Shown: positions 33,751 to 58,146 of the stretch, piece by piece
Layout of the letters: each line of letters begins with the position of its first letter
Numbering within the stretch: the stretch's first letter is position 1
Source of the DNA: Hoplostethus atlanticus
Taxonomy: Eukaryota > Chordata > Actinopteri > Trachichthyiformes > Trachichthyidae
Length of the DNA stretch: 64,000 bases
Reading direction: 5' to 3'
Assembly (NCBI GenBank): GCA_034670405.1
Contig: JAXDDX010000007.1
Location: forward strand, 1,636,001-1,700,000
The notes under the pieces: model-generated
What the model saw: the letters and a program-made list of their open reading frames with translations, nothing else
Database searches by the model: none
Told to the model about the DNA's origin: nothing
Translations under genes and position numbers: made by a program

Positions 33751-35215
33751 GAGTGTGATGTGTATCCTTGCTATATATATAAAGGGGTTGCTAAAGGCAA
33801 AAAGCATTGAAAGGAAGAGTGGTGCTGTCTTTGAAGTAAGTTGCAGTACATTTAGCTAAATCATTGTTAATGGAGCTGGTGATACCTTTTTCTCTTCCAA
33901 CTTACCATTTTTTTGCAATTAAGTTATTGCAACCCCGTTACATGCATTGTTCTACTACAACCTCGATGGCCTCTACCATTCATGTCCACTTATTTAGAAG
34001 AAATTACAGTGGGCAAAATAGCGTAGGGTACTGTGTCCTTTATTAATAGACTAGGGTCTGGATGGTGCCATGGTGTGAGAATGACTGACGTATAAAAACG
34101 GACGGAGCAGAAATAAATTCAGACGGGGGCTTCCCAAAGCAATGTTGTACTTGTCAGATCCCACAGAGAGTAGATTATGTCTCTTTATCCACCTCTGGTA
34201 CTCTCATGCCTGACCTTGTGTATCGCTGACAGTTTGTTGACCAGTGACATGGCCAACTGTCACCCACCAGACACCCAAAATGCCACTAAATGCTCCAGAC
34301 ACGGGTCAGACAGCTGCTGGATATACCACATCTGTAGCTAAGGACTATTATATAATATGATGGAAATGATTGAAAAGCAGGAGACGTCACGACATGTAAC
34401 CAGAAGCTTGAAGACCAGGGGCTAAAAGAGGAGCAGAAGGATCAACCAGATGGACCCCAAAAATCAGCAAACAGAGTGTCATAAAGTTTAGGAGCAAATA
34501 CAAGGAAATGTGCCAAGAGAAACCAGCGCACCAGCAGGTAGAGGAGCAATAAACATCGTATCCAGAAGACAGAGGCCTAAAATCGCTGTGCTGACTACTG
34601 ACTGTTGGACTGTTCCCCTGCTGTGTCCACGTCGTTACGGGGACACACAGCGACCCCTGCTGAGAGAATGATGGAGTGAAGAAATGCTTCGCAAAATTGA
34701 AAGAGAGCAGCATTAAATGAATCGAAAACCTCAGGGGGTTGTTTGTAATATTGTTTGTCATAAAAGGGTGTTTTATTTTGTAGTTATTGTGTTGTGATTG
34801 AAGACGTCAGTGGGCCCTACTGTTAGTAATTTGCAGAATGATTCCCCCGGTGTGTGCATGTTCAAGAGTCTGTTAAATGAGGCCGGAGTCTTGTTCAAGC
34901 GCCGTTAATCATTGCTAGAGAGCTATTCCACGGTCCGTGCACTTTTACACTGCACCGTGTGCCTGTTCTTTTTTATTGTTGTATACTAGGGAGGCTTAAA
35001 GACAATTTATTGCCGACAGTGTCTTGTTGGAGCTGTAGGTGGAAGAACCCAGAGCAGAAACCCATCGTGGCACTCGTGTTCATAATTCTACGTGGGTTTT
35101 TTTTTTCTGAGCCCGATTTCAGAGTTGTCTCAGTTGACAAAGTCTCACACGACACGCCTTGCCCTGCTTTAGTTATATTGTGTTGAACACTTGAGACTTG
35201 GCTGAGGCTACCCCT
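33751..35215. other. Gene-free stretch
   Basis: No coding exon, RNA gene or clear transposon end seen. Base composition is ordinary. Confidence 0.4.
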
Positions 35216-35223
35216 CTTCAGGC

Positions 35224-35820
35224 CAGGGGCGATTTTCAAGTGAAAATCAGTGAAAGGAACCAGTTCCTTTGCATGGTATACCAGTCTGTTTCTCTGGGCT
35301 AAATGTAGCACAGATTTATTGTCCCTTAAGGCTATATGCACTATAATATACGTAAAATATTGTTGAACTTAAAGCAAATTTGTAGCATTTTTGTAGTAAT
35401 TCATGAGGATTCAGTTCTGTGCTGATCGGCAGTGAGTTTATAGTGACCTAATCCTACTTGATGGTATTTTCTAATCTGCTATGGTATTCTTATAATATTA
35501 CTATAGGGTCTTATAGTTTTTCTATGATATTTGTATACCTAGTATCCTTCTAAAATCTGTTCCAGCATACTTTAGTACCTGCTCCTCAGTGGTTTCAGTG
35601 AAACCTGAGTGTCATGGAGAGGATTTCTTGTCCCCTTCTTGAATACAAGGTATCCATACCTCCTAAAAGGCTCTAGGCAGGTCTATAGACTTTCTGGTCA
35701 CTAGCTGTTGGCCTACTAGTTTTACTTATTTAAGGCGCAGCACACATTAAATAAAATGTAATTACCCTTCTCTGAGGGGGCTCACCTCCCCCCAAACCTC
35801 ATGTCCTAAAATCGCCCCTG
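35224..35820. mobile_element. Short non-autonomous hAT element
   Basis: Perfect 13-bp terminal inverted repeats (CAGGGGCGATTTT at 35224-35236 and its reverse complement at 35808-35820) are flanked by an identical 8-bp duplication, CTTCAGGC (35216-35223 and 35821-35828). The 597-bp interior is AT-rich and has no open frame, so it is a MITE-like deletion derivative. Confidence 0.88.
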
Positions 35821-35867
35821 CTTCAGGCTCACTGGAAAACTGCTGTCTGTCATTGTGGTTGATAAAC

Positions 35868-36340
35868 CGTTGTGGCCAGTGTCATCTTCTTTGCGGTGGT
35901 GTGTTGGGGCACTAACACCAGGGCCAAGGATGCCAACAGACTGAACAAACTGATCAGGGAGGCTATGTTGTGGGCATTAACCTGGACACCCTGGAGGAGG
36001 TGGCAGACAGAAGGATGCTGGCCAAACTGCTGGCCATCATGGATAATGTCTCCCACCCCCTCCATGACGTGGTGATGAAGCAGGGGAGCTTATTCAGCCA
36101 TAGACTGATCCCACCGTGGTGCGACAGAGAGCTACAGGAAGTCTTTCCTGTCGGCCACCATCAGACTTTTCAACACCTCCCCTCCCCTCTACAGCTCAAC
36201 TGAGGACTGTGTTGCTCCTCATCACTATCACTCTGCACTTTATTCATTGCCCTGCACTTTAGACACTTTAGACACTCTCATTCCCTTTCACATTCCTTCA
36301 TTACCATTCTTTAACTCTATTTCTGTAGGCAATATTGAGA
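35868..36340 (+). mobile_element. 3' end of an L2-like LINE
   Basis: The stretch encodes, with frame breaks, the post-reverse-transcriptase tail seen in fish L2-like elements (VVCWGTNTRAKDANRLNKLI; LDTLEEVADRRMLAKLLAIM; NVSHPLHDVVMKQGSLFSHR). It is followed by a pyrimidine-rich 3' UTR with TGCACTTTA words. It is truncated at the 5' side and inactive, and follows the MITE-like hAT element with about 40 bp between them. Confidence 0.75.
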
Positions 36341-36547
36341 GTTTTGTTCCAAAATGACAAAAAATGACATGCACACTTATAAAACAATTTGATGGCACAA
36401 AATTAAAACAAAGAATAGTAGATCCCTTGGTTTATACAAATACACTTGTACAGATAGAATCCACAATGTATTTAGTTTAAATGTATTTAGTTTAAATACA
36501 TTTATTTGAACATGACAATAAGCAGAATGATTCAAGTGCGATTTGCA

Positions 36548-37601
36548 TTAGAGGATTTGCTGTTCTTCTTTCGGCCTGAAGAGACGGAAGAGCCAAGAGA
36601 AGCAGCCAGAATTCTTCCTCTCTTCCTTTGGTTTTGAAGCAGGTGATCTCAACGTTGGAGCAGTCAAGTCCTGCAGGGTCGAGCCCTTGGACCAAGTCTC
36701 CCTCCTCCTGTGCAGTGATACTGCTGTCAGGCCCAGCACAGAGCAAAGTAGTGACGTTGTTTTTCTCATCACACTCAGGATTTGCATCTTCATGGACACT
36801 TGTGGCACTTTCATCAATTGGATCACCGGCAGAAAACATGACTTTCTCTTCCTTGAGGACCACATGGTCTTGGCCCTCTTCCTCTTTTTCCAAGTCTGAG
36901 AGGAACTGCTGTTGAGTCAGAATCTGCTGTGACGACTGGCTCCCATGTATCAAGCTGGTTTATAGACGGCCCACAGGGTGAAGAGCAGTCAACCACAAAT
37001 CCAGATACATCAGATGAAGGAGCATAGAAGTACTTTTCACCAAGTACATTCTTGCAGTATTCATACACGTGGTCTTCTAGTTCACCAATGCAGGATTGCT
37101 GCAGCAGCCTCCCAATGAGCTCTATGGTCTCACTGGTTTGCGCCATGCTGAATGAAGCCTCAGCATCTTCAGAGATAGAGGCTGGAGCATAAGCGTATCG
37201 TCCCTCCCAATGGTCTTCAGCTGAGTTGGGCTGAGCAAATGGAGACAGGGCCGAGTTGAGCTCAACAGCGTATCCAGAGATAGAGGCTGGAGCGTAAGCA
37301 TATCGTCTCTCCCCTATGGTCGTTGGCTGGGATGTAAGCCATGAATTCGTCATCATCATCTTTGAAGGCGTTGAGGCGAATGACTTGATCCATCCACGCT
37401 GAAAGAAGTGAGACAAGGTATGTCAGCATGTTAGCAAAAACATAGGCTGACAGAGAGTTTCAGTTCTAAAACATTTAGCTTCATCTTTTATCACACAGAG
37501 ACAGTAAAGGAACTGGCTGGAAAGAATGTTTTAGGATAGTAGATCTGTTTAAAAAAGACAAATACAAGTAGATTTGTTTTACCTGGACAGAAATTCTCCA
37601 T
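36548..37601 (-). pseudogene. Unrecognised gene with tandem YAYAPASIS repeats, frame-broken
   Basis: Not recognised. Exon 1 (37601-37583) starts MENFCP and ends in GTAAAA. Exon 2 begins at 37398 after a strong acceptor (tctcacttctttcag) and continues WMDQVIRLNAFKDDDDEF. Two tandem copies of a DH.EGRYAYAPASIS unit follow, a third, diverged YFYAPSSDVSG, then an acidic region. The C-terminus (NSGCFSWLFRLFRPKEE) ends at TAA 36548-36550, with AATAAA on the - strand at 36501-36506. The first repeat copy carries one base more than the second (G run near 37310), which breaks the frame; two further frame changes are needed near 36930 and 36620. Conserved splice sites and poly(A) signal suggest a recently active gene, or consensus errors. 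A SEC16-like C-terminus is a loose guess only. Confidence 0.45.
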
Positions 37602-37639
37602 AATTGCTTTTGTTAAATTGTAACGGTTTGCTAACTAAG

Positions 37640-39600
37640 ACAATGAAATCGCTGTTTCTTTCAGGTTGGTAGAGTGAAGTCTGAAGCTCTGATTCTGAAG
37701 CCCTCTCAGAATGTCATGATGTCACAGCCAATCTGAGCTCTCTGACCTCGGCACACATTTCATCACACCCAGAGTCACATGATCACTAATGAATAAATAA
37801 AAATACTAATAGATAAAAATAATCCCTAATAGAAAATGAGGGAAGCAAATATCAACAAAAAAGAAACTAACAATACTAGCTGCTTTATTTTCTGCAGAAC
37901 TCACCACCATGTCCATGACTGCTCATCCATGAGCATTAAGAATCTCTTTTTGTCTGTAAAAGGTGATCACACACTGCCCATCCAAAGCCCCCCAGGCTGC
38001 TGCCATTATGCTTGACCTTCCTTGGAGTCACACAGTCTCATACTCCAAACATAAGAGACAACATAGACAACAGAACAGACTAGTTATAGTGCATACATAC
38101 AACATGGGTCTGGTCGGAGAGGCTGACTTAGACAGTTATGCAAATTTTCCAGGTTTCACAATCACAACACAATTCTGCAATCCAAATTTCAGTCAGAAGT
38201 AAAAATTAAAGAGATTAAAAATGTTTGTATTCATTGCATCATAAACTTGTGCAACACTGAGAGCTGTTTACTCCGTCTGGCTCTCAGACAACCACCCCAC
38301 CAACTTGTATAATGAATGAACATTTGTTGTAATGAAACGTGCTTAAGGTAAGTTAAGGTACTTCAATTAGTGCAAATTCTTTATAATAATTATCTTTTAT
38401 ACTACAGTATGTAATGGTGAAAGACTAAAGTAACTGAAAAGTGCCTTGATAAGTGCAACAGAAATCTGACAACACAGAACCCTGAGACAATGGCAGAAAA
38501 TTATGAACACAATAAGACCTAATAGAAAATAACATTTAAGAAAAAAATAAATGAATATGGTATTACATTTGAAATACCCAGTGCCATCAAAACGCTGAGT
38601 GAACTGGCTCAAAGCCATATGACTTTGCCACCTTGTGGCTTAAACTTTTTGTACATAAATTTTGCCCTTCTCTCCTTGAGAGATGCACATTTCTCAATGA
38701 CTCTATGGCGCCACAGAACTTGACACAGTTTATTATTTTAGACAGGATGTGCCTGTTTTTGTCAACCTCTTCATTATGCTCACGGATCCCTGTCCTGTAG
38801 CCTTCATCAAGCTGAGCAGCTATGTTTACTTTCCCAAACATTTGCTTTTGATTTTTCTGATGTGTGGTTTAAATCATTCAAACCTGTCTGAATCCATGCT
38901 GGGTCTGAGACCTGTCGTTTGAAAAAGGGTGCATGGAAAGCAAAATAAAGCATTGGTGTCACTACATGCAGTTAGCCAAGCCTTCCTACTAAACCAGCTC
39001 CTTGAAAACGACCGAGTATATTGTCTCATTCTGGCGCATTTTATGTCAGATGTACCACGAGCCCCTCGCTCTCTGCTGCCAACCAGTGGTTGGTGGTGTG
39101 GAAATCAGCAGCATTCAGATAAATGCTGGTGGGCGCAGGAAAGCTGCCCCCCACCAAGCTCCTATCTCTTGTATTGAAGAGGAGCGAACTGCGCATGTAC
39201 AACTTTAGACAACGTAGAACAATTTTAATCTACACTTTATTGCGGATTATACATTTTACTCACTAACTATATAATATTTACCTCGCTCATTTAAAAATCA
39301 AAGTCATTTTTAGTCTTATTCAATGAAGTCTAGGATGTGGGGAGTGGTGGGGCCAGCCGCCACTCTATCTATCTATCTATCTATCTATCTACAAATGTTG
39401 GTAAATATAGCAAGTTCATGCATTGCAAAGCCATTTTTAACAAAGTGTTTTATTATTAAATAGACATATTTACAGTATATACAATCATTTTTTAAATCAA
39501 AAATATTGCACTATTACTTGCTAACAATTTTATTTTAGCAATATTCCAGTGAAAACTGAATTCTCAAACCCGTTTTTCTGACATGAACAATTATAAATGT
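37640..39600. other. Gene-free stretch
   Basis: No supported exon on either strand. AT-rich sequence, with a short (CTAT)n tract at 39364-39391. Confidence 0.4.
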
Positions 39601-39639
39601 GCTTCTCAGTTAACATTATAAAAAACATTGTACAGTATA

Positions 39640-39645
39640 TTTATT
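39640..39645 (-). terminator. hmox1: Polyadenylation signal of hmox1
   Basis: AATAAA on the - strand, about 115 bases after the stop codon; the first canonical hexamer in the 3' UTR. Confidence 0.6.
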
Positions 39646-39759
39646 TACAACACCATTTAACATTGTTGAAGAAGAAAAGAAGCTCAGGGTCTTTGAGAGG
39701 CTTTCACAGTATAAAAATAGAGCTTTGATATTGATAATGGTCTGGTTGGTTGTGTATGT

Positions 39760-39947
39760 CTAGAAAGCATAGATTCCCACACCGACTGTGGCCAGAGCCA
39801 CGAAGAGTCCCAGGACCATTCTGAAGAGAGGAGCGATCGAGGTGCTGGGGATCTGGAGCATCAACGTACGATCTCCTGAGAGACGACATGAATTAGGACG
39901 TTAGTAATAATACAGAAACATCAACATCATACTGTAGGCCTGAGTAA

Positions 39948-40003
<56 letters not shown>

Positions 40004-41501
40004 CTCTACCTGTCTTATCAATAGCCCCTCTGGACTGTGTTGCCTGACTCTGTAGCTCACTTTCCCCCTGAGTGACATTCACCATCTTCTGTAAATCATC
40101 AAAGACCTGTAAAACAAAGACAAGAACATCCATCAGCCACGTGTAAAAGTAAATCTTCCCACTGTCCCTCATTTCTCCTAATCAACCAATACATATTTGC
40201 TCTTCACTTTCACAAACTATCATACCATCCACATCTTACCTGGATGTTGAACTCAAAGGATCTGACCGCCTCCTCCAGCACTCCGTTCCTCTCCTCCTCT
40301 GTCAGCTCGATGCCGTTCATCCTGCTGCGGTAGAGTTGTTTGAACAGGTTGGGGCTGGAGACGCCAGGGAAGGAGAAGAAAGACAGGCCCTCGCCACCCT
40401 TCAGCCCCAGGGACTTCTGGGTGATCCGTCCCAGGACCTGCCCCCCCGACAGGTCACCGAGGTACCGGGTATAAGCGTGCGCGACCAGGAATTCAGGGTT
40501 TTCCTTGGCGATCTGAAAAAAGAGTGAGACGTGGGAGTGTTACCTCAAATTTGAAGCTTAACGGAAAAGCGTACCAAGCATCTATACTGTACAGAAGACC
40601 AAGTCACGTGTATGTTTTCATTTGACACACACCTGTCTTATTCTGTGGGCGTATCTTTTAGTGGCTGCGGGGACAACGATCTTCTCTCTCCAGTCCTGGC
40701 CATAGAAGTACTCCAGGTCTTTCTCAACAGACTCCAGTCTCGCCAGTTCGGCAGGGAAGTAAATGGGTGCGACACCAGGGTGGTTGGAGTTCCTGTCCAG
40801 CTCCTCCTCCAGGGCTTGGTAGATCTCATACAGTGAACACAGGAGGAGCTGAGGAGGGGAAGGGAGGAGGAGAGTCACTAAGCGGAGTCTGAGTCGGTCC
40901 TGAAATAACCCAAAGCCACCAGATCACGGCGACCACTAACCTACATACAACACGGCCTGGATAGGATCATTATCAATGAATTAATAATAACAGTAATAAT
41001 AATAATAATAATTAAAAATAAAATTCTGCATCAGCTGATCGTGAATTTATGTGCATGTGTGGCGTAGTGCGTTACCTTATACTGTGCCAGCGTGACTTTT
41101 CCCCTCTGGTAGCTCAGCATCAGTTCTGTGTTCTCTGCCCTGACGTGACTCTCCTTGGTCACCGTTTTGATTTGCTCCGACAGATCCCTGCAGGAGAAGA
41201 AGCCAATAATGCTCACTTTACAGCCGGCTGAACCTGCGACGCATTGGCAGTGGATGCTGTCTTGACCACAGTAAAGCTTTGACTATGGTCACACTGAATC
41301 CTTGACAGAGAAGAATGAGGGGTGAGAGAGGGAGGGAGCTATGCCACGTGCAGTAATACTAAACACACATGAAGTTTCCATTTGAACACTTAGCATCCTA
41401 CTAGCATCCTAGATCCAGGTCATGTGGACAGTATATTACAATGTGTAAATGTCTAACCTGTCAGTCATCTGGTCTGCTGCTGTCTTCCTGTCCGTCTCCA
41501 T
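39760..41501 (-). CDS. hmox1: Heme oxygenase 1
   Basis: Cleaves heme to biliverdin, CO and ferrous iron with electrons from cytochrome P450 reductase, on the cytosolic face of the ER. Coding exons on the - strand: 41501-41458, 41187-41076, 40848-40633, 40512-40240, 40106-40010, 39875-39760; 285 aa, all phases intact, close to the 288 aa of human HMOX1. Seen: the proximal heme ligand His29 in [10 protein letters not shown]; distal-helix motif YLGDLSGGQ (Asp144, matching human Asp140); [14 protein letters not shown]; and a C-terminal membrane anchor ([19 protein letters not shown]). The start is the first ATG after a non-coding 5' exon. A TATA box and an array of antioxidant-response-like sites lie upstream. 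Fish may carry a second copy (hmox1b). Confidence 0.96.
39951..40001. repeat. hmox1: (AG)n microsatellite in the last hmox1 intron
   Basis: 25 units, reading (CT)n in the gene direction. It begins eight bases after the donor of the 40106-40010 exon. Confidence 0.95.
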
Positions 41502-41651
41502 CTGTACGTCTGAAAAAGCACAGCCTTTAGAAATATGCCTTCACCGTACATCATAAAACTAACGCCATATATAATCAATTTAGTATCAAATAGAAAAAAA
41601 AACAGCTTATGAATGTGACCGTAATGCAAAAACGCCTTGTGTTTCACTCAC

Positions 41652-41732
41652 CAGTTACGATGCAGTCCTTTTAGTTTGGGAGTTTGGATTATGCCCGCAG
41701 TGATTCTTTCTGTCTGGATGTTCAGTAGAGCT
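41652..41732 (-). other. hmox1: Non-coding first exon of hmox1
   Basis: A GTGAGT donor lies at 41651-41646 (- strand), and the ATG exon has a matching acceptor at 41511-41510. With a TATA box at 41756-41763, transcription should start near 41730, giving an exon of about 80 nt. The start site is inferred. Confidence 0.55.
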
Positions 41733-41755
41733 TGTGCCTCTTCAGTGCTCTCTCC

Positions 41756-41763
41756 CTTTTATA
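41756..41763 (-). promoter_or_regulatory. hmox1: TATA box of hmox1
   Basis: TATAAAAG on the - strand, about 30 bp before the inferred start and 105 bp before the donor of the non-coding exon. This fits an inducible TATA promoter, as in mammalian HMOX1. Confidence 0.65.
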
Positions 41764-41822
41764 TCATCCTCCCCTGTCTCCTCCCTCTTTCTGCCAGCTA
41801 CATGAAAACAGGAAGCAGCCTG

Positions 41823-42180
41823 GCTGACTCAACGTCTGCCTCTGGAAAGCCACGGGAGGAGAGGCCTCAGCTAAACATGACCTGGCAACTTCAGCAACGA
41901 ACAGGGAGGAAACGGGTGGGAGGGCCGAGGAGTTAACATGATGCAGCAGCTTTGGGAACCGCTTGGAAAAGTGCAGAGGGAGGAGACTACGGGAGTTAGC
42001 ATGATGAAGCGGCTTTAGGAATGCCATGAGAAAACAGCAGGAGGAGGGGTGAGCGCTAAACGTGACAGTGCAGCTGCAGACATTAGACTGGACTAGAAGA
42101 GGAGGAGGGACAAACTCTTACCATGACGGTGTGAGTTTCTCAACCAGGGGAAGGAGGAGGAGGAGGAGGACTGGTGACTG
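41823..42180. promoter_or_regulatory. hmox1: Tandem array of ARE/StRE-like sites upstream of hmox1
   Basis: Next to the promoter lies a TGACTCA element (41826-41832; read on the gene strand TGAGTCAGC, the NRF2/MAF stress-response core). Behind it are five imperfect repeats starting near 41871, 41933, 41996, 42056 and 42118 (period about 61-63 bp). Each has (C/T)TA..(A/G)TGA near its start and a GGAGGAG-rich end. The sites are ATGACCTGGC (41877-41886) and GTGACAGTGC (42062-42071), both perfect RTGACNNNGC, plus ATGATGCAGC (41938-41947), ATGATGAAGC (42001-42010) and ATGACGGTGT (42123-42132), each one base off. HMOX1 is the standard NRF2/BACH1 target. That these sites bind is inferred. Confidence 0.6.
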
Positions 42181-42199
42181 GTGGTATGAAGAATGATCA

Positions 42200-43548
42200 C
42201 AAGGTTGCTTTATGCAAAGGACAGCACAACAGCAGTTCTCAGTAATGTTCTCAGTTCATGAGAAACATTCCTGAGCAAGTTAAACCACTTGGCCTCAGTG
42301 AAAGCCACAATGAAGTTAGATTACAACTTACAAGTCAACCCCCATGACACAAGGCAAGCTCCCAAACACTGTTTAACCACTACAAAATAAAAGGCTTTAT
42401 TCAAACTGTAATAAAAGACATTGCTTGTTATGACATTGCTCCTTATTTCTGCAGTACATATTACACCATATGTGGGCTAATGACTTTTATACGTTTTTAA
42501 AGGTCATTGTAAAATAATAACGTGGAACAACTTTGGACCTCTGTTCAAAGCCTGCAGCAAGATAATAAAAAGAGGACGTGTTTAGTTAGCACTTTGTCTT
42601 TAACATGATTCAGCAGAGAGAGAAACAGAGATTGAGAGAGAGAGAGGGGGAGAGAGAGAGAGAGAGAGAGAGTGAGACAGAGCGAGACAGAGCGAGACTA
42701 AACGTGAATCAGCAGCATTTGCTCAAAAGGATTCAGGAAGTTGAGGCAGTAGGTTGAAAGCGATCTCCTGACCGTGTGATAATGGCTCATTGTTGTGGAG
42801 TGTAACTGTAGCTCAGCCTACAAACACGAACTCATCCTACACGGAACTGTTTTCGTGTTGTTGTTGCCTCCCACCGTGTCCCCGACAAACTTTGAACTCC
42901 AAACATGGCGACAGATCAAGGAGCTTTATAGAAAAGAGACAGTGTTTGTCACAAAGCTTTACCAACTTGTTTAGAGGCGTTTAGGAGGAAAACGCTGCAG
43001 TGACGACGTAAAACCTCCGTTCCAGGTGTGGGCCAGATACTAAACGGTTTGCGGTGTTTTGGCACAGGCCGCTTTCCGTACACTCGCCCAGTAGCGATAG
43101 CCCAGTTAAAAAGGTCTTCTTTGTTGTTGTTTTACGTTTGGCTGGTGTCCTCGATAGGAAACACGCAGCTTACAGCCTTGGAGTCTTAATTGTGTCTTCC
43201 TTCGCTAGAGATAGTACATTTATGATGCTCAGTTGGTGATGCGTTCATCTTGCTCAAGTTGCCAGTGGTGCCAATGCTGTATGTCCTGATAGAACTGAAT
43301 AGCAAGCCTGGCTGTTGTGTGTGTGTGTGGTGGTGATGATGATGATGACAGTTGTGGTGGTGTTGGTGCCAAAAGTGTAACTGAGGATAAACCCACCTGT
43401 ACTCACTGTACCTGACTCACCTTTTTCTTTGCAGAATAGCTTTTATCCACCGTTTTAGTCTGATGTAAGGTAAATCCACAGTACACATAGTAAGTAGCAT
43501 CAGACTGGTGTCCATTAAAGACAGATCCAGAGTATCTTATCTAGATAG
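42200..43548. other. Interval between hmox1 and the HMGXB4-like gene
   Basis: No coding exon supported. It presumably contains the HMGXB4-like promoter and any 5' non-coding exon. It holds a GA-rich tract (42615-42695) and a short TGG/GAT-rich stretch (43318-43375). Confidence 0.4.
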
Positions 43549-43596
43549 ACCAACCCCATCACCTCTACTGCCAGTCCAATGACCCAGATGATAGTG
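43549..43596 (+). repeat. Stray copy of an HMGXB4-like SP-repeat unit
   Basis: Reads NPITSTASPMTQMIV in one frame, closely matching [15 protein letters not shown], encoded 1.7 kb downstream in the fourth coding exon. It lies about 65 bp before the start codon of the HMGXB4-like gene, with an in-frame stop just upstream, so it is a relic or an unrecognised upstream exon piece. Confidence 0.4.
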
Positions 43597-43661
43597 TCTT
43601 TTAAGAAAAGAACAACAACATTTTCTGGAAATGTACTTGATTTTTGTCCCCAGGAGTGTAG

Positions 43662-45892
43662 ATGGATGATGAAGCGGCCGTTGTGAGTGGACGCAGCCAG
43701 AGAGAGAGAAAAAGATCCTACAAAGACTTTCTGATCGATGCGGAGGACCTGCAGTCGGACGATGAAGACTGTAGCACCAAAAGACCGCACAAGGTGGTTA
43801 CTGCACCCGGCGTGGTAGTTAGGGAGGGAGGATGGATGGATGGATGGATGGATGGATGGATGGAAATCTGGACACAGAGGGGTGGGTGATTGAATGGATG
43901 GATTGTTAGGTAGGTTGTCTGCTTCAATCATTGACGATCTTTCCCATTTTCACACCTCTCTGTAATTTCTTACCTTGGTGGTTAGCAACATTATTAAGTC
44001 ATGTCAAGTTGTGATGGATTATTCAACCTTTGCAGGAACAAAAGGACTCACACAAGAAGAGCAGGCAACACTCTGGTAAGGAACAGTTGATAAGATGGTT
44101 GTTGTGACTCCCAGCCGTCCAGCATGGTTGTAATACGTTTCAGTGGTAAATAGTCTAAATGGGCATACTCTCATGGGCAAATTCCATGTTGAATCTGCTT
44201 CACTACACCACTGCTGTCCTCTGCAGTCCATTTTTTTTATTCAACTGATGTGACCAGAGTTTCAGGGGGTTGAGGGACAATTGAATCCCCCTGGTTAACA
44301 GGGAGACTTTGGGGAACAAATTGCCTGGTTGTTAAATATGAATAAATGACCCATTGCAGGTAATAGCAGAGCTGAACCTGAACTTTACGGAGTAGAGACC
44401 TCTGGCTTCCTCCCCGCCTCTCCAATTTATGTACCACAAGACAGATGGAGAGAGAGAGGAGGAGAAGAGGTGAGAGAACAGATGGGATGTAAGAATAAGA
44501 GATCTAGTACATTTTACTCTCAGTCAGATGAAGTTTACCAGGAAAATGTTGGTTGTTTGATGGAGAGAGAAACAGTGTCGACTTTTGAGGCAATTGGCTC
44601 GTCGGTAAACTTTATGTGACGAGAGGATTGGCAGAAGAAAGCAACACCAACTCTGGATTACTTAAAGGTCCACCTTTTTACATTAGATCATGCTAGTTGC
44701 CTATACAGACACTTAATGTACTGTATGCTAACACGTTAGCATGTGCACAGGACAGAGATATCTACCAGAGAGACAAGATGATTTTGGTTGTACTGCTATG
44801 GTAACATGACCGATGAGCCAATTTGCCAAAAGGTCTGTGTTGGTCTTAAACATTATTTGTTGTTCAAGGTTTAAACTGAAATCATCATCCGTACAAAACT
44901 GATCTGATCACTAATCTGTAAACTCCCCATGTGTCACCACATTAACTAGGTTGGCACAGAAGACAACTTGTTGCATTCACATTGTACAGCAGAGGGCAGC
45001 ATTGATCAGGTAACTATTCAACGTGTTCCTCATTTTCTACTTTCATTTGTACTCATCCAGTGAATCTGTTTTTGTTCTGCCTTCCTGTTCCTCCCAGGCA
45101 GGTCATAGCTCTGTAGCGGAGTACTGGGCATATCTAGACGACGATCACAACATGTCTGAGTCTCCAGAGACCAGCCCCATCGCCTCCACTACCAGTCCAA
45201 TAACTCACGGTCCTCGTCCAGTCACATCCCTGCCTAGTTCCATGGCAGCCATTTCCAGTCCGGTGAGTTACATAGTTAGTCCAGTGACCTCTACGGCTAG
45301 CCCCGTGATGGACATGGCTAGTCCCACTAGCCCTATGAGTAGTCCCACCAGTTCACCATCCAGGGGCCCCGGCCACCCTGACCTGGATCCTGTCAACGCT
45401 GCTGCTCACCTACACCTCTTGGGGGAATCCTTGTCCCTCATTGGACACCGGCTTCAGGAGACAAATGTGAGTGGAGTCAAAGAGCATAGAAAAACTGCAC
45501 GTAATGGTCAGTGTCCTGCCAGAAATTGAGGAATTGGGGTGGGGGGGTCTGGTTTGTGCATTTCCCACATTTTACAATCCATATACAACACCCCGTCATG
45601 GAGTCACAGTTTACCCGTCTCTGTCTGTTCCTGCAGAAGACGGTGTGTGTGTCCGGCAGCCTGTCTCTGCTCTTGGACTCTCTGCTGTGTGCCCTGGCTC
45701 CCCTGGTCTGCCTCACCTCACAGATACCAGAGCTCAGGAGCTGCCCACAACACACACTGGTGAGAGAAGCAGCCACTCGCAGCGCACACAGTGTCTTATG
45801 TGATTTATGATGAAACACCTATTCTCTCCTTTTCCTCCTTTTTAAAGGCTGACACTCTGGAAAACATCGCCTACGTGATGCCCGGGCTGTGA
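43662..45892 (+). CDS. HMGXB4-like protein lacking the HMG box
   Basis: Related to HMGXB4 (HMG2L1), a nuclear regulator linked to Wnt signalling and the NURF complex. Exons: 43662-43793, 44036-44075, 44360-44469, 45098-45466, 45637-45759, 45848-45892; 272 aa, phases intact (the first donor, GTGGTT, is weak). It keeps the N-terminal motif [15 protein letters not shown] (residues 10-24) and the C-terminal block [24 protein letters not shown] plus [19 protein letters not shown] and [10 protein letters not shown] at the end. Between them is a Ser/Pro/Thr repeat region (residues 115-190). Human HMGXB4 (about 600 aa) has a Lys-rich region and an HMG box in the middle; neither is found in any intron here. 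It is therefore a shortened paralogue, or a copy from which the box was lost. Placement near hmox1 matches human 22q12. Confidence 0.85.
43832..43862. repeat. (GGAT)n microsatellite
   Basis: About 7 units in the first intron of the HMGXB4-like gene. Confidence 0.9.
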
Positions 45893-46113
45893 GTGACGAA
45901 GACGCTGTTGGCCACACACAGGAAGTTACAACATGTGGACAGTTTAACTTAGTTTAGACTCATTGGAAAATAAGGACCAAAGCCATTTTGTTCTAAATGA
46001 CTAGGGATTAGTCAGGTGTCTTTTGGACCAAGCACTATCTAATTGTATATAAATATTGTGTGTTAGTATCAAATATGTAAGATAAAGAGTTTACTTTGTT
46101 GTCTTGGTTGTTC

Positions 46114-46119
46114 AATTAA
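46114..46119 (+). terminator. Possible polyadenylation signal of the HMGXB4-like gene
   Basis: The variant hexamer ATTAAA occurs within AATTAAAATG near this position, about 220 bases after the stop codon. Use is inferred. Confidence 0.35.
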
Positions 46120-46590
46120 AATGATTCATTTGTTATGAATCACATTGGCATCTAATGGGTCATCACATACATAACGGACGCTTTTCATCTATAGGATTAG
46201 ACTCATTGGAAGTGGCAGATGGGATTTTTATGGTTGGAGTTCATCGAGCATTTCATAGATGTAGTGCTGGTCTAGAATTTTTGAATCCAGCACTTATGAT
46301 TTGAAAAAGACTGATAGATAAAGTCTGTGAAGCCTTGAACTTGGGGCTTGATATTTAGAAGGAAGTGGCGGAGGGATGTACAATTACGCAGGCTTACATG
46401 TGTTGCTGGGTATTAACCCCTGAAGGTCAACCTCATATCGAAAGGCATCCGTGAACTGGATGGGTGTGGCGGGTAAAACCTTTGGTGGAGTGATTCACGC
46501 GTGCCCCAGGACACATCTGCTCCACCCTCTCAAGGAATGCTTAGTCGCCTGCAGACAAAGGAGCCTGTCTGCACACTAAACAAGAAAGAA
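46120..46590. other. Gene-free stretch
   Basis: No coding or RNA signal seen between the HMGXB4-like 3' end and the possible GIMAP 5' exon. Confidence 0.4.
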
Positions 46591-46609
46591 AAAAAAGGGT
46601 GTCAGAGTG

Positions 46610-46851
46610 AGTTTAAAGGTGCAGAGGCAGGAAAGTGGGAGTGGCTAGACAGCTACCTGAGACTGTGAGACACACCTGTAAAGGCACTTGAGATGATTGT
46701 TGTAGGTTGCTGCGATCGGGCGCTTGTTTTCTAGAGCCAAGAATACAGAAGGAAGTTTTCTGGATGACATAATTTAACACCAGTAAACCAAACGGAGCCA
46801 ATCGAGAAGACGAGGATACATGCACGCCGTCTAAAGCTCTCACACAGTTGA
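46610..46851 (+). other. Possible 5' non-coding exon of the GIMAP gene
   Basis: The stretch ends in an ideal donor (TTGA then GTAAGTATG at 46852), and the GIMAP start-codon exon has its own acceptor only two bases before the ATG (AG at 47821-47822). An upstream non-coding exon is therefore needed, and this is the best donor in the interval. The exon start is unknown. Confidence 0.35.
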
Positions 46852-47824
46852 GTAAGTATGTTGTTTCATGTGGGTTGGACAATGCAAAACATACATGTAT
46901 ATTCCAGTTTTTATATGAAAGTAGGGAATATTTGTAACAGCAGATTATGAATTACCAGATGATGATGCTTTACTGACTATTTGGTGGTAAGGATAATCCC
47001 ATAATATCAACCCATGTATGGCCTGAGCACGTATGGCACGTTTACCAGCTGCATCTACGTCTATTTTAGCTGCTCTAACTGGTATTCAACATCTAACATT
47101 ATACTCCACGCCCTCAGTATTTGAGGTTCATGCTCAATGGTGCGTTTATTCTAGTTTTGTGTCTGTTGCCAGGTGGATTTGTTTACGGGCATGTGTGCAG
47201 ATCAATCCAAATAGAGAGGTCAAGGCAGAATGTAGTTAGACAGGACTAGCAAGGCGTGCCAAGCAACACCTCGCTGATGCACGTCAGGTAAAAAAGGTTT
47301 TATTGAGGAAAAGGAAGAAAGTCGTTCCAATGATATGACGGCTTGCTGAGTGGCAATTACCTTCATCTTTGCTAGCTCATGCACAACAGGTGGAACCAGA
47401 TGGAGTGAACGTATACAAAAGAGAAATGGTATTCGAGTGACATGACATAGCTTTCTTTTAATTATGGGAGGCCCACAACAAAGACACACTTCAGTCAGTT
47501 AAGTCAGTCGAGATAGACAACACACACATCAAACAGCCCTTCTATGTTGACTTCATTTTCCTTGCACATCAGATGCCAGATCAGCTGCTTCAACAGGAAG
47601 CAACCTTGCCCTACCTACACCATTCTCTGTTTTTCTAGTTGTATTTGCATGTCTGTCCATATCCTCAATTCTTTGCGGAGACAAGCCTCCGCCTAAAGCG
47701 ACATTATAAACACGTCCTTGCTTGTTGCTAGTACTTATTCTTTTCTAATATCACTGTTGCAGATTGAGTCTTCTCTCCATTTCCCCCCAAGATACTGTAA
47801 AATGTCCCTCCTCTCTTTCCAGCT

Positions 47825-50800
47825 ATGACCGAACACTCGAGAGGGAGCCTCTATGGGCCCTCGCTCCCAGAGCTGCGGCTGGTCCTTTTGGGCACCATCG
47901 GATGTGGAAAGACCGCATCGGGGGACACCATCCTGGGCCAGCTGTACCCCATCTCTCCCAGTGGGCCCTCCAGGAGCTGCCAGGTGCGACAGAACATCTC
48001 TGAGGGCAGGAGGCTGACCCTGGTGGAGGCGCCGAGGTGGTACTGGAGCGGCGGCCGCATGGAAGCCAATGTTAGGAAAGAGACGGAGCGCGCGTTGACA
48101 CTGGCAGCGCCGGGCCCGCACGCATTTCTGCTGCTGGTGCCAGTTGGCCAGTTCACAGAGGTCGGTGGTAGTTTCTGTCTGTCCCTCTGGTGACATTTCT
48201 CATTTGAACTCATGTTTTTGGATCTACATTCTTGTGTTTTCCAATATTTTTTAAAAATTTGTTTGCTACATATTTCATGACAATGGGAAAAGTTTGATAA
48301 AAATATAATATTTAGCTACTAATGGGTTCTCCTCCTGTTGTCATTCCTCTTCCTGGTCTTCCCAGGTAGAGGGCCGTGTGCCTGCAGAGCTGGAGAAGGT
48401 GTTTGGGAAGTGGGTGCTGGGCCACACCCTGGTCCTGCTGACCTGTGGGGATTATTTGATGGGCCAGTCAGAGCAGGTATGTAACAAATATACACTCAGC
48501 GGGGGGTATTTGACAGAAACCCCCTGCAATATTTCTTCACCATCCCCTGTGTGAAATCTACAACTGATTGTAGGAGAGAATCAAAACAATTGCAAAAATC
48601 TGAATTCACACAAACTGTGTTGCACAGGACTACCTGGAGAGGGAGGACCCGGGCCTCAGGCAGCTGATAGAGCGCTGTGGGGGGAGGTACCACATCATCA
48701 ACAACCGGCGACGACACAACAGGGAGCAGGTCCGTGCTCTGCTGGACAAGGTAAGAGGGAGGAGTTTTCATGGGAGTTTTCCCCCCTTTTTTTCATTGAC
48801 GGTCAAAGGTTGGGAGGTGTCAGTTTCATTTTGTTTTCATTATGATTTTTTTTTGTTTCACAATGTGGGTGTTTGTGAAGCCCTTTGAAACTAAAGGTGA
48901 TTAAGGGCATTATATGTGTGTGTTTTTTATTGTTTCATCTGGCAAGGTTGCTGAGCGTGCATGTTTTTGCCAGCAACGCCCTGTTTCAAACTGGTTTGGT
49001 GTCATGCCTTGTTCTCCTCTGGCAAGTTTGCTGAGAAATTAAATGATTTTTAAATTTTTATAGGTAGAGAATATGGTACAGAAGAACGGAGGATGCTACC
49101 TGAAAACACCCCAGGGGAGAGAGATGGAGGAACGGGTGAAAGCAAGAGAGCAAGAACTTAGTGAAAGGTACAGAGTTAAGGTGGAGGAGAAAAGGGAGAC
49201 CGTGGAGTCCGGGCGCATCCCAAACACAGATACGCAGAGGAGCACGGGAGGAGAGGAGTACTGGGTACGCCGCTGCCTTGGAGAGGAGGAGAAAAGAAGA
49301 GAGGGAGGAGGAGAGAGTGACGGCGAACCCAGTAGCCAACGGGGTCCATTCAGCAGCACCGGAGCCGCAGTCACAGCCGGAGCCAGGCAGTGACGGCACA
49401 CAGCAGGCCAAGAGGAGCTCCAGTTTCAGACTCAATGCAGGTAAAGGCAACAACTGGGTTCTCTGCCACTTTCCTACCCAACTCATTCCTACGTCACAGT
49501 GTCATGTAAGGAGAAAAAAAAGTAAAGAAACTGTGCATGGGTCATACTTATGTTTCTCCTGTAGATGGCGCCGTGCTCTCACAGCTGTCTGAGGTCAATC
49601 CAACTCCAACTACAAAAAAGATCAGTACTTGTGAGTAAATTCACTCACTTCTTTTGTGTTGTTTGGAGATTAGAATCAATTGTATTTCTAGTTTCCTCGT
49701 CTAAGCTTCAGATTTCACCTCCTTCCTTTCAGTACACCACAGAGTCAACAGCGTTGAAGAGAGATCTTCTCCTGAGGCTTCTCCCACCTCCTCTCCTCAT
49801 TCACCCATCTCCTCCTCCGTCTCCTCAGCAACCTCCTCCTCCTCCTCCTCCTCCTCCTCCTCCTCTCCGGAGTTGCGTGTGGTGTTGCTGGGGCGGTCTG
49901 GAGCGGGGAAGAGCGCAGCTGGCAACAGCATCCTGGGTCGGGAGGAGTTTGAGTCGCGCCCGGACAGCCTCACAGCCATCACTCAGGAGTGTGAGAAAAA
50001 GAGGGCGCTGGTTGCAGGGAGAAGGGTCAGTATTTCAGCCCGGTTACCGGGGACGTTTTGCTCGCTTTAAAGGTGCTACGTGTAGCATTTTTAAACATCA
50101 ACACATCATTGTTAAATGAATTGGTGTAATTACCAAAACAACTGGCTGCCTCTATCTCACGGCAGTTACTGTTTTTGCTATTGGTTCTCAAAATGAAGAC
50201 CTTATTTCCCGTAAATCCTTTTATTTCCTGCCACAAAGAGGATGTCAAAGGTTTTTTTTCTTTCGCTAAACACCAACTGCCATGAGAAACTCTGAAAGCT
50301 TTGACTCTGTTTGTGGTGGAAGGACAGTGACAACCTGCTGGAAGCACAATATAGAATGAAGATTTCACCATTTATTAGGATTTTTTTACTGTGTGTTTAT
50401 AACCCTCTCTCTATCCCCCTCTCTCCCTCTCTCCCTCCCCTAGCTGGCAGTAGTGGACACCCCAGACTGGTTCCATTCAGAGCGCTCGCCAGACGAGGTG
50501 CGAGCTCAGATCTCCTCCTGTGTAGCGCTGTCCAGTCCCGGCCCCCACGCCTTCCTCCTGTGTGTCCCCGTGGACCAGCCTTCCAGGACCGAGCTGCAGG
50601 CTCTGAGGGCCCTGGAGGGGGTGTTCGGCCCCGAGGCGGTCCAGACGCACACCCTGGTCCTCTTCACATACGCGGATCGACTGAGGGAGAACGAGAAGGT
50701 GGGGAAAAATGGCGTGGAAGCATACATCTCCGGTCAGCGGGGGGATCTGTTGAAGCTGGTGGAGAAATGCGGCGACCGGTTTCACGTGATGGAAAGGGGA

Positions 50801-51958
50801 GGAATGGAGGAGGAGGAGGAGAGGAGGAATGTGGCAGAGCTGCTGGAGAAGGTGGAGCAGACAGTGAGGGAGGGAGGAGGACAGTGTTACTCCTGTCCTG
50901 CTTTTCAGGAGGCGGAGAACCGAGTGAGGCAGAGGCAGGTGGAGATAGCCATGGAGAGGAGGGGGAGAAAGCTAGAACAGGAAAGACCCAGAGAAACTAA
51001 TAGGAGGGTCCTCTATCCCTCCATGCAGCCCTTGACAGAGGAGGATGAAGAGGACGTGAGAGAGGATGAAATTGAGGAAATGAGGGATGAAGCAGAGAGG
51101 AGTGTCGGCACCATGAATCTGGAGAGTCTTCCTCCGATTTCACTTGCTTTGTCCCCGTCGCTTATTCGTTCCATGTGGGAAAAAGTTGGCTCCGGTGCGA
51201 AGATGGTTCCCAAGCTGTTGGCTGATGGTTCTGTGTGGGTTGGCGAAGGAGCAAAGAGGGTGGCGACTAGTCCCAGGTGGGGAGCGGTTGGAAGTGGGGC
51301 AAAAAGTGTCCACAAAATGATGATTGATAGTTCTGTGTGGGAGAAGTTAGGGGCAAAGAATGTCCCCAAGTTGACTGTAGACAGTTCTACATGGGTGGGA
51401 TCTAGAGCAAAGATGGTGACGGGAAGTCCCATGTGGGAAAAGGTCGGGTCAGGAGCCAAATCTGGGGCCAAATTAGTAGCAGACAGCTCCATGTGGGTTG
51501 GGTCTGGGGCCAAGAGTTTGGCACAGAGTCCCGTGTGGGGAAAGGTAGGATCTGGAGCCAAAATCATGGCCAGCAATTCCATGCGGGTCGGAGCCGGCAT
51601 CGGGGCCGGGGCGAAGAAGGTGGCGCAGAGTCCGGTGTGGGGCAAAGTGGGATCTGGAGCCAAAGCTGGGGCCAAGATGGTGGCCGAGAGCTCAGTGTGG
51701 GAGAAAATCAGCACCGGCGCTAAAAAGACGTCCGCTGTAGTTATAGGCGGTGCGTTGCTGGGTCTGGTGCTCGGGGTGTTTTTGGGGGGCGTGATAGGGG
51801 GCGCCCTGGGGGCCACGACTGGGTCTTTGGTCACTGAGGTGGCTAGACGGAAATTCAGCAAAGAAAACACACGGGAGGGGATGGATGTGGGGAAAACGGT
51901 GGATGACGGCGTGGAATCGCTGGCAAAAAGTGGAGAAAAACTATTGAAAACAGAATGA
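47825..51958 (+). CDS. GIMAP-family protein with two AIG1 GTPase domains
   Basis: GIMAP/AIG1 proteins are immune-associated GTPases on membranes, often C-terminally anchored. Coding exons: 47825-48160, 48366-48476, 48628-48750, 49064-49440, 49565-49630, 49733-50025, 50444-51958. The product would be about 940 aa. Domain 1: P-loop GTIGCGKT (residues 23-30), but EAPRWY in place of DTPG. A charged linker and a poly-Ser tract follow. Domain 2: P-loop GRSGAGKS, NSILG, VVDTPDWF, and LFTYADRL at the G4 position. Then an acidic stretch, about eleven W..(V)GSGAK repeats and a Gly-rich membrane segment (GGALLGLVLGVFLGGVIGG). Exon 49064-49440 is 377 nt where 376 would keep phase; the frame changes between about 49255 and 49320 in GA-rich sequence. 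Read as given, the first frame stops at 49391-49393. It could also be two genes, but the downstream phases all fit one. Confidence 0.8.
51171..51725 (+). repeat. Coding tandem repeats, W-x-x-V-GSGAK type
   Basis: In the last GIMAP exon about eleven units of 15-22 residues alternate between forms such as MWEKVGSGAK, VWVGEGAK and VWGKVGSGAK. Trp/Arg, Gly-Ser-Gly-Ala-Lys and a following SP or SS recur in register. The repeats end just before the Gly-rich hydrophobic segment. Nucleotide similarity between units (GGTC.GG.GCCAAA-like words) points to recent duplication. Confidence 0.8.
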
Positions 51959-55191: not shown

Positions 55192-58146
55192 TCATCGCTC
55201 ATCATTTGTGGCTGCCACCGTCCTTATCTGACCCTTGACCTTCCCCAAAATGCCATGGGCCACCAATGAGGTCTTGGCCCCAAAGCTCTCCTCGCTGTCC
55301 GTGTCGCCATAGCAACTAGATGTTGCTGGGGAATTAGCCAGGGCAATGACCGAATCAGTTGAGTCTCTATCTCTGAGGGACGTCGCCATGGCAGGACGGG
55401 CCGAAGCTGGCGGCAGGCAGCGGGGTGGAGGGGGTGTGCCACACTGGAAAAGGGGGTTCAGTTTGTTGCCGTCCAACCCGCCCTTGGTGCTCTCCTCCTC
55501 GGCCTCATCCTCGGCCGAGTTCCTGGTCTTGTCCTGGGCCTGGTCGTTGAGGAGAGTGACCAGGAAGTTGATGTATTTCATGGCCAGGCGGAGGATCTCG
55601 TTCTTGCTGAGCTTCTTGTCGGGAGGGTGCGTGGGGATGAGCTTCCTCAGATCCGAGAAAGCCCCGTTCACGTTCTGCTGCCGCCAGCGCTCGCGGCTGT
55701 TGGTGAAGACGCGCCGGGCGAGCTTCTGAGGAGGGCCTGCCAGACAGACATACACTGTGTAAGGGTGCAGAACATACATAGTGAATCACATGAAGGTTAA
55801 TAGTATTTTCACAAACACACTTTCAAACATGCAAACAAACCCATAGGAAAGCAAAACCCAAGAAGAGATCTCATATTTATACCTTTTACATCTCCTAGAC
55901 ACAAATTAGCTTTTTTTTAAGACTAAGATGAGACTAAAGGCTTTAGGTTTTAGGAGAAACATTTCAGAAGAAGGTGATCACAAAATGAGATCTCTCCCGT
56001 ATTTCTCAGGAGATGAAGCAAAGAGGAAAGGTTTTTATTTTAATCTTGTTTAGACACACAGAAACTCACAATCATTGAGCTCCATCTCAAAATGTGAAGA
56101 GGGTCTCCTCTTGATCCGGCTGCTGGTGAAGACCCCGTAGCTACCAGAGGAACCAAGGTAAGAACTGGAGAGAAATGTGATGAAAATGTATTAGAAACAC
56201 TGTTGTGACTGAGACTGTGACTGTAAAACCCAGCTACGTAAATAAAGAAAACCAATTGAATCATACGTTAGACCATTCCAGCTCACGTAATCACTCCAAA
56301 TTGAGATGAACCTTTGAGAACGGATGGAGCCAGCAAGAGAACGGTGGAAGCCATTAACTGTGGCGTGATTACGCTAGTGGCGTTGACTGTGCATGCAGAG
56401 CTAGAGCCCAGTCTCATTAAGCCTGGTTACTATATAGCTGATTCTACTTCTGGGCGATGAAATAGATCAATGTTTCCTGCTGGGGGAAGGAATCTTATTC
56501 CCAGATCGCCATGACAGATGGGGAAGCTATAGACAAAAACGTGGCTCGATACTGAAGAGGAACCGTTCAGGATGGAGGAACAGTAGGAAGGCTTTCATAA
56601 TGGCTGCAAATGAACGTGTCCCTTCATGAGAGAGGGTACTCCACATGTTCAGTGTTCTGAAGCTTTATTTTTTTCAATTGAACTAGTGCTGCAGCCTGTA
56701 CGCTTACAACCATACTAGTTTCAGTTGCAGTTAAAAGTACACGTGTACTTCAAGTGCTACCTCCAGCGTTTTGATTCTAATCGCATGAAGAAGAAAAAGA
56801 AAAACATTGGGCGATGCAGCTCACGTTCAGCAACCAGATGTACTGTATATCTAACGTGTTGCGTGAGAAATGTGAGATGCCCCTTTATAACAGCACGTAT
56901 CCTGCTGTCAATTTCACAATTCATACCCATAACTGTGAAACATAACCACTATAAATCACAATGGGAAGTCATGAAGTCTCAGCAGTTAAAGGTTTCACAT
57001 GAAACAGAAACGTGGCCTCAGCACCGCAGTGGCATCATGATTACTAGAGACAACTAACCATACCAGGATACTATTCCACATCCTCTCACCTGGCGAAAAG
57101 GCGGCGAGTGAATTAGCAGTATATGTTTGCCTTTTATTTGATATATCTTGTAATGTTGTATAAAAATCTAAAGTCAGCATTGCCTATAATAAAGAATACC
57201 ATAATAAATAAATAATAATAAATAATAAAACATTTTTCTAAAAGGTTTAAATGCAACCTATGTATACATTTGACTGGAAATGAAGCGGAGCAGCCAGGTA
57301 TTCTAGCAAAAAGATTGTTTAATACCGTCCCCTTTCCCCTTTACTGTATATTACTATCAGTGGTGTCATCCAATGTGGGATCCTAATAAACCAATTCTCA
57401 CCTGGAGAAGAAAGGGTGTGGAGGCAGGTACTGGTGGGGCAACAGGGGCCCCGGGGAGGGAGCTGAGGGGCCTCCAGGACCTCCAGGACCCCCGGGGCTG
57501 GCCGCTGACAGTGAGGTGAGCTGGGTGAGGCGGAAGTCCCCGTGGGGCCCGTGAAGGAGGTTAGGAATTGGGTGCAGGGCAGTCAAAGGGGTGTTGGGGA
57601 GGGGGAGAGGAGGCTTGCTGTGACCGAGGCTGATGACCGGAATGTGGGGAGGAAGAGGAGCGGCGGAGGAGGATGAGGCCGAAGGGAACGAGGCGGTGGA
57701 TGTTGGAGTGGGGAGAGGACATGGGGAGGTCTTGGAGTCCATGGCTGGTGCCGGGAGGAGAGGAGGTGGGGAGGAAAGCGTTGGGGAACCGGTGGCGGCG
57801 ATGGCGGTCGGCCCTCCTCTTTTCTCCTCCTCCATCTCCATGACGATGAGCTCAGGTGCAACGGCTGTATCCGCCCGGCGATTGGGTACTGCTGTTGTGG
57901 TGGTGATAAGGGGTTGAAGTGAGGTGGCAGCGGGGATGTCCGTGTCTCCCTTGTGCCCAGTCTTGTTAGCCGGATGTGGACTGCTGATAGCGTCCGGAGA
58001 GGGTGAAGGCTGCTTCTGGAAGGGACTGTTTTGCTCCGTGGAGGCAGAGGAGGAGGAGGAGGAGGAGGAGGAGGAGGAGAGGAAGAGGAGCGAGGTAGGT
58101 CTGGGGGTGAGGCAGGCAGGCCGGCGGGGTTCAGCTTCTCCATCAT
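55192..58146 (-). CDS. lyl1: LYL1-type bHLH transcription factor
   Basis: LYL1 and TAL1 are class II bHLH factors of blood and endothelial development that bind E-boxes with E-proteins and join LMO2/GATA complexes. Exons (- strand): 58146-57402, 56164-56070, 55736-55192. The bHLH is at the start of the last exon ([20 protein letters not shown], then [19 protein letters not shown]). The middle exon encodes SSRIKRRPS, and the first exon [11 protein letters not shown], a LYL1 signature. PQKLARRVF and linkage to nfix (human NFIX-LYL1) also favour LYL1 over TAL1. The start MMEKL with a good Kozak context at 58146 is family-like, but its frame differs from the rest of the exon: the shift falls in the (TCC)n Ser/Pro tract at 58046-58080 (one base short or two too many). 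Downstream phases fit. The N-terminal region is longer than in human LYL1 (280 aa). An internal in-frame start lies at 57841. Confidence 0.9.
58046..58080 (-). repeat. lyl1: (TCC)n tract in the lyl1 first coding exon
   Basis: About twelve TCC units on the coding strand. The family-like start codon and the downstream coding sequence are in different frames on either side, so tract length decides whether the long N-terminal form can be made. Confidence 0.8.

Follow-up and report, generated by a model that had tools for sequence, protein, structure and literature searches.

HMOX1 is a standard NRF2/BACH1 target, and the 64-kb stretch of DNA analyzed here (64,000 nucleotides, referred to as the window) raises the question of whether an imperfect 61-bp repeat beside the hmox1 core promoter is an array of antioxidant response elements (AREs) kept for their binding bases or a decaying repeat that carries ARE-like words by descent. 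The gene was identified by three neighboring minus-strand segments, out of eight segments sent, that matched Pfam PF01126 above the cut-off, and the heme oxygenase domain reads away from the array. A TATA-like box was confirmed on the minus strand (Table 1), the extra TGACTCA that the original prediction had placed nearer to this box was found, and the array cores lie 114 to 360 bp from the box. Moreover, hmox1 is arranged head to head with a neighbor whose first coding exon we take to resemble HMGXB4. Since the exon-1 donor of this neighbor is probably at 43025, the two starts would be at most ~1.3 kb apart.

Table 1. Features of the hmox1 promoter region, in window coordinates
Feature	Positions	Strand	Remarks
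Stretch with three Pfam Heme_oxygenase open segments	40213..41282	-	Pfam
hmox1 start-codon exon	41458..41509	-	ATG 41501-41499; acceptor TTTTTCAG, donor CAG/GTT; borders read from sequence
hmox1 exon 1, non-coding	41652..41732	-	Inferred borders and start (~30 bp from TATA); donor CTG/GTGAGTG
TATA box of hmox1	41758..41763	-	TATA-like GATATAAAAG; TATAAA at 41763-41758
StRE/AP-1-type core TGAGTCAGC	41823..41831	-	Sole TGASTCAGC in the 64-kb window; TGACTCA at 41825-41831
U1	41854..41916	+	Extended ARE 41872-41887 TAAACATGACCTGGCA, 11/11 specified positions
U2	41917..41978	+	Extended ARE 41933-41948 TTAACATGATGCAGCA, 10/11
U3	41979..42039	+	Extended ARE 41996-42011 TTAGCATGATGAAGCG, 10/11
U4	42040..42100	+	Extended ARE 42057-42072 TAAACGTGACAGTGCA, 11/11
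U5	42101..42162	+	Degenerate ARE 42118-42133 TTACCATGACGGTGTG, 9/11; GT replaces GC
RTGACNNNGC core ATGACATTGC	42430..42439	+	Outside the 61-bp array
X1, extended ARE TTAACATGATTCAGCA	42600..42615	+	10/11, full TCAGCA half-site; flanks unlike units
X2, extended ARE-like TAAACGTGAATCAGCA	42699..42714	+	10/11, fails at Y; TCAGCA half-site
First open frame of divergent neighbor	43662..43886	+	hmgxb4-like, no Pfam match; probably overruns exon end

Self-alignment recovered five imperfect units (41854-42162) upstream of the minus-strand hmox1, with RTGA starting at 41877, 41938, 42001, 42062, and 42123 and with core spacings from U1 to U5 of 61, 63, 61, and 61 bp. The five units had been predicted to start at positions that proved to be at most one base off the core 16-mers (41872, 41933, 41996, 42057, and 42118). 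The predicted periodicity was likewise seen: a gapped banded self-alignment at lags of 58 to 66 scored 61.4, compared to a mean of 11.4 and a maximum of 24.8 in 300 dinucleotide shuffles of 41801-42200, and the best single lag among 10 to 149 in the self-alignment of the local region was 61. The copies are thus arranged head to tail at a regular lag, as in a tandem repeat, and the repeat score, the position of the TATA box, and the PF01126 matches together support tandem duplication beside the hmox1 core promoter. The array was absent from the 21 rows returned by Tandem Repeats Finder for 35000-50000, an omission probably explained by the divergence of the units, and it fell outside the 40 best results of an ungapped scan of the whole 64 kb at lags of 25 to 159.

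Only 43 to 60% of the bases are common between units. Whole-spacer gapped identity for three adjacent pairs was 0.74, 0.66, and 0.63, compared to 0.63 (standard deviation, 0.07) for shuffles; since this is hardly above the shuffled level, the spacer as a whole is near saturation, although the stretches adjacent to the cores are not. Indeed, between-unit identity was 0.45 in the 20 nucleotides 3' of the cores (P = 0.0016) and 0.53 in the 18 nucleotides 5' of them (0 of 5,000 as high), versus 0.28 in random stretches of the region in each case. Each unit consists of a GGAG tract followed by an extended ARE, 14 bp start to start, in a form that is TNANCRTGANNNNG(C)R-like, and the region around the array is strongly purine-skewed. 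The GGAG tract lies outside the ARE and is invariant across units, equaling the fixed bases of the ARE in this respect; it may act as an additional element or may have seeded the duplication. The proposal that the spacing approximates six helical turns did not hold, because the cores fall out of phase at 10.5 bp per turn (0, 291, 291, 223, and 154 degrees). At 10.2 bp per turn the phases become 0, 353, 56, 49, and 42 degrees, and since the outcome depends on the value chosen, phasing cannot be claimed. A coding repeat was rejected, as 61 bp is not divisible by 3, yet a 117-codon minus-strand open stretch crosses the array. Structured RNA was rejected as well, since a scan of 40000-45000 at gathering thresholds gave no hit in Rfam.

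The units were compared to the published ARE consensus, TMANNRTGAYNNNGCRWWWW (Wasserman and Fahl 1997, cited in PMC1934401), and to the core RTGAYNNNGC without the WWWW tail, which is the form used in ARE work on fish, namely, salmon (PMC5068245). The 16-mer tested, TMANNRTGAYNNNGCR, comprises the first 16 consensus positions, 11 of which are specified. The five cores showed exactly the predicted variants (two perfect with TGAC, two with TGAT, and one with a terminal C-to-T change): U1 and U4 are RTGACNNNGC, U2 and U3 are RTGATNNNGC, and U5 ends in GT rather than GC. The published ARE permits TGAT through its Y, so that the inference of both gain and decay of sites holds in part only; U2 and U3 are not decayed at this position, and U5 alone is off the core consensus. 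RTGAYNNNGC was present in four of the five units and at 42430 and 42605, with U5 failing at GC and X2 at Y, and the extended form TMANN....GCR was exact in U1 and U4, had one mismatch in U2, U3, X1, and X2, and had two in U5. The full WWWW tail occurred in none of these seven sites (U1 to U5, X1, and X2), the best being 3/4 in U1 and U5. The reading of the repeated core as an ARE is supported. A motif search found TGASTCA in none of the five units.

Exact matches to TMANNRTGAYNNNGCR occurred only twice in the 64 kb, in U1 and U4. Genome-wide, there were 4313 in 633 Mb (about 1 per 147 kb) versus 2107 for the pattern read backward, and RTGACNNNGC was found 112,474 times versus 74,715 for its control. 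When one mismatch to the 16-mer was allowed, 6 of the 18 matches in the window fell within 41800-42750, all six on the same strand. With the array counted once, these amount to three events, compared to ~0.18 predicted from the other 12 matches (Poisson P near 0.001, calculated by hand for a region picked after the fact). The local excess expected from the original prediction was found for both forms of the core in 41801-42750, where RTGACNNNGC occurred 3 times (shuffle mean, 0.17) and RTGAYNNNGC 6 times (shuffle mean, 0.30), each count being reached by 0 of 2,000 local shuffles. At the scale of the window, RTGAYNNNGC was again clustered, with counts of 4 per 300 bp and 6 per 1,000 bp that none of 100 shuffles attained, but strict RTGACNNNGC was not, since its maximum of 2 in 300 bp was reached in 52 of 100 shuffles. 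More sites are thus present than expected by chance, as in a homotypic site cluster, and four of the six RTGAYNNNGC sites are duplication copies.

The predicted extent of the cluster, five units plus TGACTCA, was correct as far as it went but was understated, in that the core at 42430 and the ARE-like sites at 42600 and 42699 had been missed. X1 was rejected as an array unit (5' flank match, 0.11 to 0.28; 3' flank, 0.20 to 0.45) and is treated as separate; X2 is probably separate, with the same range for the 3' flank and a purine-rich 5' flank that is moderately alike (0.33 to 0.44). On a profile built from the five cores, X1 scored 16.3 and X2 scored 11.9, with nothing else outside the array scoring higher than X1 anywhere in the window. 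Over 60 shuffled windows, the top score averaged 13.6 and reached 17.3, placing X1 inside this range and X2 below the mean; both are unremarkable by score alone and notable only by place. No distal StRE enhancer of the mammalian type was found in the window, which covers ~21 kb upstream of hmox1 and contains a single, proximal TGASTCAGC. Two 15-bp copies of GACATTGC(T/C)... occupy 42417-42446, and the second copy yields the perfect RTGACNNNGC, ATGACATTGC. ACGTG, which we take to be the hypoxia-element core, overlaps the RTGA of U4 (42060-42064) and of X2 (42702-42706), and the corresponding letters at the other sites are ACATG, GCATG, or CCATG.

The columns of the array were compared over five units only, in an alignment anchored on the core. 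Overall, 13 of 60 ungapped columns were invariant, as were 6 of the 7 fixed bases of the ARE (P = 2e-4). Pairwise identity was 0.94 at the fixed ARE bases and 0.38 at the N positions of the ARE, compared to 0.45 when the core was left out and 0.38 when the GGAG block was left out as well. When the consensus was slid over 46 registers, the true register was the best (0.94) and the next reached 0.70. TGA was also excluded, because the finding had been chosen for its standout RTGA; three of the four other fixed bases remained invariant (P = 0.015), as did both the T and the A of TMA taken alone (P = 0.024). These P values are optimistic, the locus having been selected for its motif. This comparison is the principal evidence added by the analysis, and it turns around the emphasis of the original prediction: the spacer has decayed and the sites have not, except in U5, and this near constancy of the fixed ARE bases while the spacer drifted suggests that selection acts on the ARE sites of the array.

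Given that the repeat is present, agrees with the published consensus, and has conserved fixed bases beside a diverged spacer, we consider it fairly probable that the array is a homotypic ARE cluster in the proximal promoter of hmox1, one that would have grown by tandem duplication of ~61 bp and then been preserved by selection acting on its binding bases. It is unlikely that purine GGAGGAG tracts instead seeded a minisatellite that has since decayed, with the ARE-like word persisting by descent without function and the lone TGAGTCAGC near the TATA box doing the work, although this is the strongest of the alternatives. The purine skew of the region and the invariant GGAG tract fit it, as does the fact that TGAGTCAGC at 41823 is the only canonical site of its kind in the window. 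RTGA(C/T) is moreover a short word, and repeats at 11 other loci hold three such words at the same spacing. These loci came from a genome-wide search for ATGAYNNNGC followed by two RTGAYNNNGC, 59 to 65 bp start to start, which returned 49 places grouped into 12 loci including hmox1; the reversed control pattern was commoner (129 places). Regular spacing of ARE words is therefore not rare in repeats and is not special in itself. The hmox1 locus differs in belonging to a known target gene and in pairing constant cores with a diverged spacer. With one record taken per locus, gapped spacer identity was 0.80 to 1.00 at 10 of the 11 other loci, compared to 0.66 to 0.74 at hmox1, and the eleventh locus (C33; identity, 0.62) looks like a repeat of shorter period. 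Neutral decay of a minisatellite would, furthermore, spare columns at random, yet six of the seven fixed ARE bases are invariant and the N positions have diverged like the spacer. The additional ARE-like sites beyond the array also argue against this explanation.

It is improbable that the sites serve mainly the divergent hmgxb4-like neighbor, or both genes through a shared bidirectional promoter. The head-to-head arrangement, the inferred proximity of the two starts, and the location of X1 and X2 on the side of the neighbor are consistent with such a role, but the array cores lie close to the hmox1 TATA box and hmox1 is the established NRF2 target. Slightly less probable again is that the core serves another factor, whether ATF4-C/EBP-like, a hypoxia factor, or one acting at the GGAGGAG tract. 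For this comparison, U2, U4, and X2 were set against what we take to be the ATF4-C/EBP composite and hypoxia-factor motifs. U2 (ATGATGCAGC) resembles the C/EBP-ATF composite TGATGCAAT, U4 and X2 contain ACGTG, and GGAG is invariant; however, neither the composite nor ACGTG is common to all units, and the ARE is a better fit to the invariant columns, T.A.C.TGA....G. Quadruplex-heme control was rejected, since the cells studied in PMC9753424 lacked a G4 at the HMOX1 enhancer.

If the array is indeed a homotypic ARE cluster, Bach1-small Maf would at rest be bound mainly to the TGAGTCAGC site by the TATA box and repress the gene. Upon exposure to heme or electrophiles, Bach1 would depart, and Nrf2-small Maf heterodimers would occupy both the TGAGTCAGC site and the array, such that the filled sites could give a graded, multisite induction of hmox1. 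The array would be expected to favor CNC-Maf heterodimers over AP-1 because no unit contains TGASTCA, and AP-1 would then read only the site at 41825 in this stretch. We infer the binding, the Bach1/Nrf2 exchange, and the graded output by carrying the protein steps over from the coho salmon hmox1 promoter and zebrafish zymogen promoters. A more far-reaching version is doubtful: that an ancient composite array preserved by selection (the GGAG tract plus an extended ARE blind to AP-1) has come to fill the part played in mammals by the far enhancers, so that in fish the tuning of hmox1 depends on how many CNC-Maf sites its bidirectional promoter contains, and that the two ARE-like sites outside the array arose independently.

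It is already known that hmox1 of fish is under proximal ARE control and that HMOX1 carries several StREs. In coho salmon, mutation of the proximal ARE drastically cut or abolished activation of hmox1 by Nrf2 (PMC5068245). That promoter, like the present one, is from a teleost and carries the RTGAYNNNGC core, located at most 380 bp from the transcription start and required in a reporter. In contrast, it was the most proximal element that was mutated there, and the available text of that study mentions no 61-bp tandem array (PMC5068245). The human E1 and E2 elements are likewise at the same gene, with several NRF2/BACH1 sites per element, but they are located ~4 and 9 kb upstream and contain multiple StREs, as described in PMC4267629, whereas the sites found here are in a tandem repeat at the core promoter and the unit cores are not of the AP-1 type. 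In zebrafish, heme causes Nrf2a to take the place of Bach1b at MafK sites, and among zymogen promoter fragments, one that carried two MAREs was stronger than one that carried a single MARE (PMC4073273). This Bach1b/Nrf2a exchange parallels the one proposed for the hmox1 array, although the zymogen MAREs belong to different genes, are ~5 to 7 kb upstream in the constructs described, and are not tandem units (PMC4073273). Zebrafish Nrf2 targets, with hmox1a among the genes studied, also resemble this locus in having multiple upstream AREs (more than three in 5 kb), but no regularly spaced ARE array is described in the part of that report available (PMC3201981).

Among the matches listed from the open-license literature, none reported a tandem ARE array at an hmox1 promoter by title or abstract opening. 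The combination of a diverged spacer with constant binding bases offers a natural experiment in which copy number, spacing, and half-site type can be set against response, and the array makes it possible to examine whether homotypic clusters expand by duplication and are subsequently maintained because their sites are under selection. Should the sites be bound, this locus would join that of coho salmon as a further fish example of hmox1 being controlled through AREs at the promoter and not kilobases away.

Several further observations were made in the window. A search for relatives in IMG/VR, with one 109-aa hmox1 exon as the query, gave eight pattern stretches, none of which was confirmed. 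A repeat with a 63-bp lag, close in period to the promoter array, lies within the hmgxb4-like open frame at 45169-45345 on the plus strand. On the minus strand, an open frame at 36826-37422 contains a 35-aa repeat around RYAYAPASIS and matches CLAMP weakly (E = 0.019, below the cut-off), and another, at 55192-55779, contains a bHLH domain that is presumably TAL1/SCL-like. The top ungapped repeat score of the window belonged to a plus-strand open frame of 501 aa (50453-51958) with a 34-aa repeat (102-bp lag), upstream of which, at 47801-47998, is a weak AIG1-type segment (E = 0.002, below the cut-off).
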